DNA of 64,000 nt from Thiorhodococcus sp. (GTDB taxonomy: Bacteria; Pseudomonadota; Gammaproteobacteria; Chromatiales; Chromatiaceae). Made by a program: the position numbers and the translations under genes. The notes under the pieces were generated by a model, which had not been told where the DNA came from, searched no databases, and worked only from the letters and a program-made list of their open reading frames with translations. This document shows positions 59,937 through 62,860 of this stretch, in pieces (position 1 is the first letter of the stretch; every line of letters starts with the position of its first letter). Location of the stretch: positions 1 through 64,000 of the forward strand of contig JARIBS010000043.1 in the NCBI GenBank assembly GCA_029257385.1, written 5' to 3'.

Positions 59937-60542
59937 GGGGCTTTTTCTCCTGAGGTTGGTTTTGAGTCAGGGTTTTTCGCACCACTGCGGCGCGAGACAT
60001 CGGGCGTTGATGGGCGAATGGTAATGTTCGACGTCGCCCCAGACCAGCGGGATGTCGATGATTTGAATACGTGCGGATTTATATAACCCCGAGGCATACA
60101 GGACGAAGCCGGGAATCGGCGGACTTGTTCAGGCAGCTCGTTTCGGCCTACGTTGCACACCCTCTCTATCGATTGTTCGTCTCCCGAGCGACCGAGTCGC
60201 AGCCAGACCCCGCGACCAGCGCAACGGCACACGCCGCGATCCTGGATGATTTCCCGAGAACACAAGAACCCGACCGGATGTGCATGGCCACCAAACCCAC
60301 GGATTTGTGCGCTACATCTCAAATCGTATCTGTTTCCGCTGGAGCGACGGGCTTTCTTCACGCCCCGGTTTCGTTCGGGGTTATCTTGCACACGATACGG
60401 TGGTCAGAGTAGTGGGCGACTGCTTCCTGCTGTCGCGTTCCGTACTAGACAGGAGCTGTTGAGTACGGTGGACGCAGAATCTGTCTAGTATGACGAACGT
60501 AGATTCTATCTAATCAACCGTTAGCTTTTACGCGCAACTATT
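59937..60542. other. 606-base spacer upstream of RelA/SpoT gene
   Basis: The part next to speA is its leader and promoter region. The rest contains several overlapping open frames on both strands, none with recognisable or gene-like translation. From about 60470 the composition shifts to AT-rich, coinciding with two imperfect direct repeats and the start of the atypical gene. I see no tRNA, hairpin terminator or transposase motif here. Confidence 0.5.
60476..60512. repeat. Imperfect direct repeats upstream of the RelA/SpoT gene
   Basis: AGAATCTGTCTA (60476-60487) and AGATTCTATCTA (60501-60512) agree at 10 of 12 positions and are spaced by 25 bases, or about two and a half helical turns. They lie 31-67 bases before the start codon, where an operator would be expected. 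Confidence 0.4.
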
Positions 60543-61607
60543 ATGAATTGGATTGAACTAGCGTTTTCCAAGAAGCAAGTTCGTCGTGCAGGTGATTATC
60601 TGATCGAAAAGCAGGACGTTTCTGATGTAGATAAATTGTTTGAGTCATTTGATGTCCTTTCTAACTGGAGATCATCACATGCGTATCCAATGCATTCGAT
60701 GCTCATGTACTTTCGAAATAAGGCATTTCTTGTTGACGCAAAAGCTTTGGTTGTACAAAGGCTCAAACGCACGCCCTCTATCTTAGCTAAATTGCGAAGA
60801 GAGAGCGGTATGAAATTGGACCGGATGGAAGATGTTGCTGGTTGTAGAATCGTAGTTTCAACCAAGGCAGACGTTTATTTGACACGAGACTTGATAGTTG
60901 GTGGTAGAACTCGAAATATCCTACATCGAGAAAGAGATTATATAGCCAACCCAAAGGATTCTGGATATAGAGGAATCCATTTAGTGTATAAATATAGCGG
61001 AGCAAAAAAACAATATAACAATCACAAAATAGAATTACAAATACGAAGTAAAATACAGCATTCTTGGGCAACAGCCGTCGAAGTAGTTGACGCTTTTACT
61101 GGTCAAGCCTTGAAAGCTAGCCAAGGTCATGATGCGTGGCTAAATTTTTTCAAGTACACAAGCGTCGCTTTTTCTGACATGGAAAACCGAAAGCTCGCGA
61201 AAGACGCAAGTAGCACTGAAAGGCATGAGTTAATTAAATATATTAGTCGTCTAGATGTATTGTCCAGACTCAGGGCATTTGCAGTATCAACAAGACATTT
61301 GGGCAAAGACACAAGTAATAAAAATGATTTTTTTCTGCTAACATTGGAAATAGATAAATCTAATATCAAAGTGAGACGATTTCCTTCTGACCAATTGGGA
61401 TATGCATCAAGAGAGTACGCCGAACAAGAAGCCAAATTCAAAGACAATGACCAAAAAGATGTCGTCCTTGTAGCAGCATCGTCTATTCATAGCTTAAAAA
61501 AAGCCTATCCGAACTACTTTGCGGACACTACAGAATTTGCTAAGTATCTCGAGAAAATAATAGAAGCTGACAAGAAAATTCACCCGACCTCCTCTGTCGG
61601 CGGGTGA
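60543..61607 (+). CDS. RelA/SpoT-domain nucleotide pyrophosphokinase, stand-alone
   Basis: A 354-residue protein with a (p)ppGpp-synthetase-type domain and no hydrolase (HD), TGS or ACT domains. Key parts: RMEDVAGCRIVV (Arg94, Asp97), DYIANPKDSGYRGIHLVYKY (Tyr142 in the G loop) and IELQIRSKIQHSWA (Glu164, Gln172-His173). The N-terminal 90 residues (WRSSHAYPMHSML, RLKRTPSILAKL) and the last 150 (ending AYPNYFADTTEFAKYLEKI) are extensions seen in a broad family of long stand-alone members. It could make (p)ppGpp or (p)ppApp, or pyrophosphorylate tRNA like toxic SAS enzymes. The gene is strikingly AT-rich compared with all neighbours, indicating transfer. No separate antitoxin is adjacent. Confidence 0.85.
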   Translation: MNWIELAFSKKQVRRAGDYLIEKQDVSDVDKLFESFDVLSNWRSSHAYPMHSMLMYFRNKAFLVDAKALVVQRLKRTPSILAKLRRESGMKLDRMEDVAGCRIVVSTKADVYLTRDLIVGGRTRNILHRERDYIANPKDSGYRGIHLVYKYSGAKKQYNNHKIELQIRSKIQHSWATAVEVVDAFTGQALKASQGHDAWLNFFKYTSVAFSDMENRKLAKDASSTERHELIKYISRLDVLSRLRAFAVSTRHLGKDTSNKNDFFLLTLEIDKSNIKVRRFPSDQLGYASREYAEQEAKFKDNDQKDVVLVAASSIHSLKKAYPNYFADTTEFAKYLEKIIEADKKIHPTSSVGG

Positions 61608-61610
61608 TTT
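61580..61610 (+). terminator. Hairpin overlapping the RelA/SpoT stop codon
   Basis: TCACCCG (61580) and CGGGTGA (to 61607) form a 7-bp stem whose right arm contains the stop codon, followed by TTTATA. It is GC-rich within an otherwise AT-rich gene and may end its transcript. Confidence 0.45.
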
Positions 61611-62051
61611 ATACGTTATGTTTCAGGCAGATCGAGAGTCGGTGCAAGCCCGCCAGCCCAGACGTGCTGGCAGTTCGAAGAATGGCTCGCGGTTGGATTT
61701 GTCGTAGGCTCCCCCCGAGACATCGACATCAAGCCGCTTTCTCGATCTTGATCGTCAGGCGTCGGCCCAGCGCGAGCAAAGCCCGCTCCAGCGTCGCCGC
61801 CTTGCTGGCGTGACGGGGGTCGAGCAGGCGTCGTGCCTCCTTTGTTGAGGCTCTAGAGCAACGCCTAGGGTGTGCGCTCCAGCGACGCAAGCCAGGGCCG
61901 AAACCGCAGCAACGAGACGATCACACCCAGGATCTTTTCTCGCTCCCGAATCGAATTCCGTAAACTGTACTGGGAACTGACTGAGCGCTGTTTCGCCCCG
62001 TCAGATGCCAGTGGTCTTGTTTGCTTGTAATCGAGCGATTACGATCATGCG
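61611..62051. other. Decayed intergenic stretch
   Basis: Apart from the HicB-like fragment listed separately, I see no intact gene here. The composition returns to GC-rich. The part from 61850 to 62040 holds only short unrecognised frames. The promoter of the toxin-antitoxin pair should lie near its right end. Confidence 0.45.
61729..61848 (-). pseudogene. HicB-like / HTH antitoxin C-terminal remnant
   Basis: On the minus strand about 39 codons read STKEARRLLDPRHASKAA then TLERALLALGRRLTIKIEKAA and stop. The pattern RLLDPxHAxKxxTLxRALxALGRRL is the C-terminal HTH of HicB-type and related antitoxins. The N-terminal part is missing and no HicA-like toxin is adjacent, so this is a relic of an earlier toxin-antitoxin locus. 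Confidence 0.6.
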
Positions 62052-62348
62052 ATGTTCACGGTCAAGCAAACGCCCGCCTTTGCCGCCTGGCTGTCCGGCC
62101 TCAAGGACGGCTTGACGAAGCGGCGTCTGGCGCGTCGGCTCGAAAAGGCCCAACTCGGCAATCTCGGCGACGTGAAACCAGTGGGCAAGGCTATTTTCGA
62201 GATGCGCGAGCATTTCGGGCCTGGCTGGCGGATGTACTACGTCCAGCGCGGTCCGGTGCTGATTCTGATGCTGGGTGGCGGTGAGAAGTCGACTCAGCAG
62301 GCCGACATCGACAAAGCCGTGGCACTTGCGTCCACCATCGAGGATTGA
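62052..62348 (+). CDS. RelE/ParE-superfamily toxin (HigB-like, HI1419 type)
   Basis: A 98-residue toxin of the 'addiction module killer' family: PAFAAWLSGLKDGLTKRRLARRLEKAQLGN, GKAIFEMREHFGPGWRMYYV and LMLGGGEKSTQQADIDKA are all characteristic. These proteins are expected to act as ribosome-dependent or free RNases, or gyrase poisons. The gene ends 3 bases before the antitoxin gene, the usual toxin-first order of this family. Confidence 0.92.
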   Translation: MFTVKQTPAFAAWLSGLKDGLTKRRLARRLEKAQLGNLGDVKPVGKAIFEMREHFGPGWRMYYVQRGPVLILMLGGGEKSTQQADIDKAVALASTIED

Positions 62349-62351
62349 CCC

Positions 62352-62726
62352 ATGACTGAGAAGATCCGAGTCGCCGATTTGCCCGAATTCGATATCACCG
62401 AGTACCTGGAAGGCGATCAAGCGATCGCCGAATATCTGACCATCGTTCTGGAAGAAAACGATCCCGCCGCCTTGGCGCAAGCGCTGGGCACTGCAGCCCG
62501 CGCGCGAGGAATGACCGAGATCGCCAAGGCGACGGGGTTGGCGCGTGAGGCACTCTACAAGGCGTTACGCCCCGGATCTCAACCGCGGTTTGACACAATT
62601 AACCGTGTTTGCCACGCACTAGGAGTCAAACTTGTGGCGCAACCAATCATGTTGGAGAACGCGGCAGCGCGGCCTGGTAAGGCCGCGTGTTCTAGCGGGT
62701 GTGGCTCCCGCCTGGGTAATCGTTAG
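62352..62726 (+). CDS. HTH antitoxin (HI1420 type) with extended C-terminus
   Basis: A 124-residue DNA-binding antitoxin. FDITEYLEGDQAIAEYLTIVLEENDPAALAQALGTAARARGM, then TEIAKATGLAREALYKAL (Xre-type HTH) and FDTINRVCHALGVKL define the family. Members normally end about here, at 95-105 residues; this one continues for some 25 residues that are cysteine- and arginine-rich (KAACSSGCGSR) and encoded by two successive DNA hairpins, so the original stop was probably lost. It should neutralise the upstream toxin and autoregulate the operon. Confidence 0.88.
   Translation: MTEKIRVADLPEFDITEYLEGDQAIAEYLTIVLEENDPAALAQALGTAARARGMTEIAKATGLAREALYKALRPGSQPRFDTINRVCHALGVKLVAQPIMLENAAARPGKAACSSGCGSRLGNR
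62657..62712. repeat. Two adjacent hairpins inside the 3' end of the antitoxin gene
   Basis: AGAAC...GTTCT encloses a perfect 8-bp inner stem (CGCGGCCT at 62669 and AGGCCGCG to 62688, loop GGTA). Immediately after it GCGGG (62696) pairs with CCCGC (to 62712). Both lie in the abnormal C-terminal extension of the antitoxin, suggesting what was once a downstream terminator or repeat. Confidence 0.55.
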
Positions 62727-62860
62727 ACACGAGCCGGGGGGCTACTGCAAACCGGTATCCTTGATGCGGCCGATGACTTGGCCCCTGCTAGAAAGCTTGG
62801 TCGTTTCCGTCAATTACCCCGCCCTGAAGGACGCGGTTTCTCGCCGAGGACCGGATAGAC

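Follow-up and report, generated by a model that had tools for sequence, protein, structure and literature searches.

A fused CapRel toxin–antitoxin gene, probably carried as an integron cassette, between dtd and speA of a Thiorhodococcus genome

The 64-kb stretch of Thiorhodococcus sp. DNA analyzed here (the window) carries a stand-alone gene with a RelA/SpoT-type synthetase domain whose 354-residue product is, on the basis of sequence and predicted fold, a fused CapRel over its whole length, in which a toxSAS toxin and an in-cis antitoxin and phage sensor share one chain. By the sequence of its two ends, the gene is an integron gene cassette of 1,095 bp. We consider it highly probable that the protein is a one-protein toxin–antitoxin for abortive anti-phage immunity, and that it has travelled as an integron cassette. 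The features of the locus are the following:

59937–62860, no strand: 2.92-kb insertion between speA and dtd, delimited by comparison with three relatives
60521–61615, plus strand: integron gene cassette of 1,095 bp with CapRel as its sole gene, from the shared GTTAGC boundary and the GC segment
60543–61607, plus strand: gene for a fused CapRel of 354 aa, with a toxSYNTH toxin and a C-terminal antitoxin/sensor domain, from PADLOC PDC-S33, phmmer and fold match
60756–61073, plus strand: toxSYNTH core (RelA_SpoT, residues 72–177, with Arg73, Asp97, Arg102, Tyr142 and Glu164), from Pfam, conservation and the SJ46 register
61113–61568, plus strand: C-terminal part (about residues 191–342) with anchor-1, pseudo-zinc-finger and anchor-2, the predicted in-cis antitoxin and presumed phage sensor, from BLASTP against SJ46, the AlphaFold2 model and conservation
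61506–61517, plus strand: YXXY neutralization motif Y322-P-N-Y325 (YPNY), aligned with Y352/Y355 of SJ46
61565–61621, plus strand: attC site overlapping the final 14 codons of CapRel and its stop, from geometry scan and covariance model
62052–62726, plus strand: RelE-type toxin (62052–62348) and HTH antitoxin (62352–62726) of the HI1419/HI1420 type, above the cut-offs of TIGR02683 and TIGR02684

A preliminary description of the window had reported an intact synthetase ORF of 354 residues with a base composition sharply different from that of its neighbors, and both observations hold. The ORF begins with ATG at 60543 and runs to 61607 on the plus strand with no internal stop. The cassette as a whole (60521–61615) has a GC content of 39.3% and CapRel a GC3 of 34.6%, as compared to 56–60% GC for the adjacent non-coding DNA and toxin–antitoxin genes and 64% for the host genes speA and dtd. 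The low-GC segment that is best by likelihood, 60479–61580, coincides with the extent of the cassette. A gene-neighborhood comparison, which had been suggested as a check, showed that dtd and speA adjoin each other at a distance of approximately 130–180 bp in two genomes of the same genus (G101 and G022) and in one of the same family (G018), versus 2.92 kb here. Similarity to these relatives ends at the dtd and speA gene ends, and the inserted DNA holds CapRel and a RelE/HigA-type pair. In a further genome of the genus (G070, locus L032), dtd is followed only by fragments of speA-like sequence, and full speA was not found in that genome; judging from this locus, the dtd–speA junction may be a variable site. 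Direct repeats had also been described before the gene; a repeat is present upstream of CapRel, but it is weak (12 of 17 positions identical, 25 nt apart), and the repeat search did not list it. A perfect 10-bp inverted repeat (TACTAGACAG...CTGTCTAGTA, 60443–60452 and 60481–60490) lies just 5' of the cassette; the repeats at 60443–60490 correspond neither to an attC site nor to a listed promoter.

No array and no intact integron integrase was detected at the CapRel locus, and the attC site of CapRel is the only one in the 64-kb window, indicating that we are dealing with a stranded cassette and not with an integron. In the host genome, integron integrases are present in broken or fragmentary form only. 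A frameshifted integron integrase on contig C39 (L145:1201–2199, minus strand) matches TIGR02249 with 122 bits, above the Xer models and at profile positions 87–176 only. Positions 1–114 of contigs C63 (L154) and C83 (L153) encode the same 38-residue C-terminus of an integron integrase, and unrelated genes come next; this shared start looks like a repeated integrase remnant. Contig C96 carries an attC-like site of 27.7 bits (L163:985–1068, minus strand) where an HNH-like ORF has its 3' end; a RelE/HigA-type pair follows after 43 bp, and the site probably marks another cassette unit.

The promoter scan gave no convincing promoter 5' of CapRel, and the flanking host genes are oriented opposite to it; with no good promoter and pointing against these host genes, CapRel may be silent here. 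The alternative that survives best is that of a silent passenger, a CapRel cassette that has been left without a promoter at a place away from any integron and has no current role in defense of its host. In its favor are the lone cassette with no adjoining integrase or array, the degraded state of the host integrases, the lack of a convincing promoter and a foreign base composition that has been kept, and we regard it as a serious possibility, if short of an even chance. On the other side, the reading frame and all catalytic and autoinhibitory residues are intact, and cassette genes can carry their own promoters.

The reading of the protein as a fused CapRel begins with its domain content. Pfam places a RelA_SpoT domain at residues 72–177 (E = 4.8e-20) and finds neither an HD hydrolase nor any other domain in the 354 residues, in agreement, as far as Pfam is concerned, with the preliminary claim that hydrolase and regulatory domains are absent. 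A search of toxSAS and CapRel families had been recommended, and it returned the PADLOC model PDC-S33 (PDLC04999) with E = 6e-117 over residues 1–342. The same model matches CapRel-SJ46 along its whole length (E = 7e-87); since it covers both proteins end to end, PDC-S33 is in effect the fused-CapRel family. A phmmer search of solved structures retrieved CapRel-SJ46 (7ztb, 9erv) with E of approximately 4e-41 over residues 5–340, the next-best family reaching 1e-12 and covering the synthetase part only. By tblastn, the SJ46 gene is 30% identical over 96% of the query, and the C-terminal 164 residues alone match the antitoxin part of SJ46 by BLASTP (E = 7e-13).

Structure prediction, which had been proposed for the C-terminal region, was carried out on the whole protein with AlphaFold2, using 53 window and locus sequences as input, and yielded a model with pLDDT 88.3 and pTM 0.84. 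The model fits 7ztb from residue 5 through residue 342 (Z = 26.5, 275 residues aligned at rmsd 3.0), whereas the next family, synthetases lacking an antitoxin such as RelQ or RelP, is matched in the synthetase part only (Z = 15.2). The earlier suggestion of a CapRel-like toxSAS is thus borne out by sequence, by PDC-S33 and by the predicted fold over residues 5–342. The proposal that the system is undescribed did not stand, since fused CapRel has been described and PADLOC models the family as PDC-S33.

A small alarmone synthetase, whose product (p)ppGpp or (p)ppApp would serve as a signal or as a metabolic toxin and whose C-terminal extension would have some other role, would also explain why the core matches the YjbM GTP diphosphokinase model (E = 3e-15) and the RelQ/RelP structures (Z of about 15), and would carry the same active-site residues, which are common to all such enzymes. 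We judge this unlikely, as the CapRel match is far stronger and takes in the whole protein, including the YXXY motif and the antitoxin fold, while the NCBIfam synthetase models score far below their cut-offs and the protein is placed apart from SAS and RelA-type enzymes in the tree.

In that tree, built on synthetase domains in a sample without PhRel and FaRel, with weakly supported deep branches and with one outgroup row (L001; 49 aa, wrong frame) disregarded, the query, SJ46 and other CapRel-like proteins group together, and the query forms a clade with its four nearest relatives (support 99/97). The distribution of CapRel is sporadic: a single one of the 146 genomes from the family of the host carries the gene, as do 9 of 369 genomes drawn from the class and 6 of 398 drawn from the phylum, while relatives are encoded on at least 145 viral-contig stretches and, in many cases, on plasmids, mostly enterobacterial. 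The preliminary description had named placement in a housekeeping RelA clade of ordinary distribution as the outcome that would speak against its reading; the protein groups with CapRel instead, and a housekeeping RSH or an ordinary SAS is rejected on domain content, family scores, tree and distribution. In one relative (L156, genome G817; 41% identity), the matched stretch contains one in-frame TAG, and this is possibly a decayed copy.

When the fused CapRel is placed in register with SJ46, Arg73 corresponds to R79, Arg102 to R116 (ATP stacking), Tyr142 to Y155 (G-loop), Glu164 to E180 and Tyr322/Tyr325 to Y352/Y355. The catalytic set of Arg73, Asp97, Arg102, Tyr142 and Glu164 is invariant (69/69) in a set of homologues clustered at 85%, so that the conservation of Asp97, Tyr142 and Glu164 indicated by the preliminary description is confirmed, and the two tyrosines of the YXXY motif are kept in 67 and 65 of the 69. 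The segment that carries this motif (residues 313–342) is well conserved, while residues 246–312, which presumably act as the sensor, rank with the least conserved parts of the protein in nearly every comparison. Such a variable region next to a conserved YXXY has been described for CapRel, in which phage specificity is set by the antitoxin domain (PMC9712102, PMC11578894). There is no Cys after residue 101, and the C-terminal pseudo-zinc-finger is therefore devoid of zinc cysteines. The trigger contacts in anchor-1 of SJ46 (L270, D273 and N275) align with His252, Lys255 and Thr257 and are not conserved; as the SJ46 contact residues for Gp54 are not kept, the trigger should differ here. The idea that the C-terminal 150 or so residues act as a built-in regulator gains support from the match of this region on its own, from the CapRel fold and from the presence of YXXY.

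The mechanism that we propose follows that of CapRel-SJ46, whose autoinhibition and activation have been described (PMC9712102, PMC11578894, PMC11782079) and which is triggered by a capsid protein or by Gp54. At rest, the pseudo-zinc-finger domain of the C-terminal part would fold onto the N-terminal toxSYNTH, with the YPNY motif blocking the donor site for ATP, which lies between Arg73 and Arg102. Binding of a phage protein to the variable C-terminal domain would open CapRel, which would then pyrophosphorylate the 3'-CCA ends of tRNAs; translation would stop and phage production would be limited. The gene very probably travelled as an integron cassette, and it now lies outside any recognizable integron, in a host gene cluster. 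By analogy with the SJ46 family, we infer toxicity, a tRNA substrate, triggering and a defense role for this CapRel; its expression and the mobility of its cassette are presumed. Its identity to any tested CapRel is approximately 30%, and thus neither the substrate (tRNA versus nucleotide) nor the trigger can be read from the sequence.

The preliminary description had recorded a hairpin at the stop of the gene, and this hairpin indeed folds better than shuffled sequence (−13.7 kcal/mol, z = −2.3); its nature had been missed, since it corresponds to an integron attC site. The elements of the site follow in the order R'' (AGCTGAC), spacer AAGAA, L'' (AATTCACCCG), a 14-nt loop, L' (CGGGTGATT), spacer TATAC and R' (GTTATGT). 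The inner arms form 9 of 9 pairs, with one extrahelical base in the left arm (position 4), and the two 5-nt spacers are unpaired. In a geometry scan of both strands of the 64 kb, 61565–61621 was the sole 9/9 match, where 0.025–0.05 such matches per strand are expected in random sequence of like composition. A covariance model trained on 11 attC sites from the arrays of L004, L005 and L006, with all sites of CapRel cassettes left out, gave the same stretch as its single match in the unfiltered window (26.2 bits, E = 7e-4); this E-value and those below are rough, the model having been trained on shortened loops with a short calibration.

The boundaries of the cassette are G|TTAGCT at 60520–60526 on the 5' side and G|TTATGT at 61615–61621 on the 3' side. 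The 5' GTTAGCT forms six standard pairs and one G-T pair with the cassette's own R'' (AGCTGAC); it departs from GTTRRRY at position 6, and relatives share its GTTAGC. An attC site ending at this upstream GTTAGCT was considered and rejected, as the pairing is weak and the arm geometry absent; the upstream boundary is accordingly read as target DNA.

The stop hairpin could also be taken for an ordinary transcription terminator, in an AT-rich segment that arrived by another route, for example through an AT-rich phage or plasmid. The contigs on which CapRel relatives were found are mostly phage- or plasmid-like, and CapRel is AT-rich with respect to its flanks in several hosts. This reading is nevertheless quite improbable: the hairpin has the full attC geometry, with two 5-nt unpaired spacers and a single extrahelical base, the independently trained covariance model detects it, and the three closest gammaproteobacterial relatives have an attC site at the same place. 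In addition, the 3' tail (TTTATACG) contains no T-run, and the terminator scan has no plus-strand entry at this position.

The neighboring addiction genes mentioned in the preliminary description are confirmed as the RelE-type toxin and HTH antitoxin identified by TIGR02683 and TIGR02684. The pair lies outside the CapRel cassette, differs from it in GC content (60% versus 39%), and is probably an incidental neighbor. A second cassette was considered for these genes; GTTAGAC at the stop is suggestive, but there is no attC in the rest of the insertion. That the pair could form one defense unit with CapRel, or control it, is scarcely credible in spite of the shared dtd–speA insertion, the spacing of 445 bp, the common orientation and the presence in L006, too, of a RelE/HigA-type pair within a few ORFs of CapRel, given the difference in GC content, the end of the CapRel cassette before the pair, the lack of another attC in the insertion and CapRel's possession of its own antitoxin domain.

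The carriage of fused CapRel as a cassette recurs in its closest relatives (66–70% identity), which come from Aliidiomarina, Marinimicrobium and Methylomonas and show the same cassette design. Two of the loci, L004 (Aliidiomarina) and L006 (Methylomonas), are evident integron arrays, in which attC sites separate small ORFs of common orientation. At the 3' ends of CapRel, the covariance model gave 36 bits for L004, 26.8 bits for L006 and 18.5 bits for L005 (E = 0.045), and GTTAGC is found 15–30 nt before the CapRel start in L004, L005, L006 and the window (60520). Among 100 loci of CapRel relatives, an attC site of strict geometry is present in L004 and L006 only, which indicates that cassette carriage is a trait of this close clade and not of CapRel generally. 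In a cyanobacterial MAG (L007), an attC-like GCCTAAC...GTTAGGC lies just 3' of CapRel; the covariance model did not confirm it. On balance we favor the view that these proteins constitute a distinct fused-CapRel clade adapted to cassette travel, with attC in the last codons, that has moved between Aliidiomarina, Marinimicrobium, Methylomonas and the present host, and perhaps a cyanobacterium. At dtd–speA, we infer that the CapRel cassette was inserted by an integrase. If such a cassette-adapted clade exists, phage-sensing translation shut-off would be among the functions that integrons can shuffle, and the switch could also come to rest at places in the chromosome that lie outside integrons.

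CapRel-SJ46 of Salmonella phage SJ46 (7ztb, 9erv) resembles the query in being a single ORF that joins toxSYNTH to a pseudo-zinc-finger antitoxin with YXXY and a variable sensor, and in matching PDC-S33. The query, at 30% identity, belongs to another clade and does not conserve the anchor-1 contacts; SJ46 is carried on a P1-like phage-plasmid, and the query on an integron cassette. CapRel-Ebc of Enterobacter chengduensis is named beside it as the closest known system. In the bicistronic toxSAS systems FaRel2/ATfaRel2 and PhRel/ATphRel, a toxSYNTH toxin is likewise neutralized by a YXXY antitoxin (PMC11782079), which is encoded by a separate gene, whereas the query has its antitoxin in cis and, as had been noted, CapRel has no antitoxin-like ORF next to it. 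The PADLOC family to which query and SJ46 belong, PDC-S33, is a model with neither name nor mechanism, and this candidate now gains an identity and a testable mechanism.

That integrons carry anti-phage cassettes is a known principle (reviewed in PMC12409362; also PMC12444791), and the accessible portions of these articles cite Darracq 2025, Getz 2025 and Kieffer 2025 for the anti-phage cassettes of chromosomal and mobile integrons. As presented there, such cassettes resemble the query in that a defense gene forms a one-gene cassette with attC; the query cassette differs in its position between dtd and speA, away from any array. Those portions of PMC12409362 and PMC12444791 do not mention CapRel as one of the anti-phage cassettes. 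Among 5.39 million open-access papers, a single one was retrieved that brings CapRel and integrons together, and a CapRel cassette is not described in it; subscription papers were outside this search, and priority is not established. CapRel and its mechanism, as well as anti-phage integron cassettes, are thus known, and what seems undescribed is the carriage of CapRel on an integron cassette.

Few bacterial immune sensors are understood as well as CapRel, in which a single protein both senses the phage and stops translation; its presence on integron cassettes connects it with the recent finding that integrons store anti-phage genes. Cassette carriage offers such sensors a route between distant bacteria, and a self-inhibited one-gene toxin–antitoxin suits a cassette, since it can do without a partner gene and without an operon. 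In the Aliidiomarina array (L004:602–10295), many one-gene cassettes of no assigned role stand beside CapRel, and these may include further defense genes.
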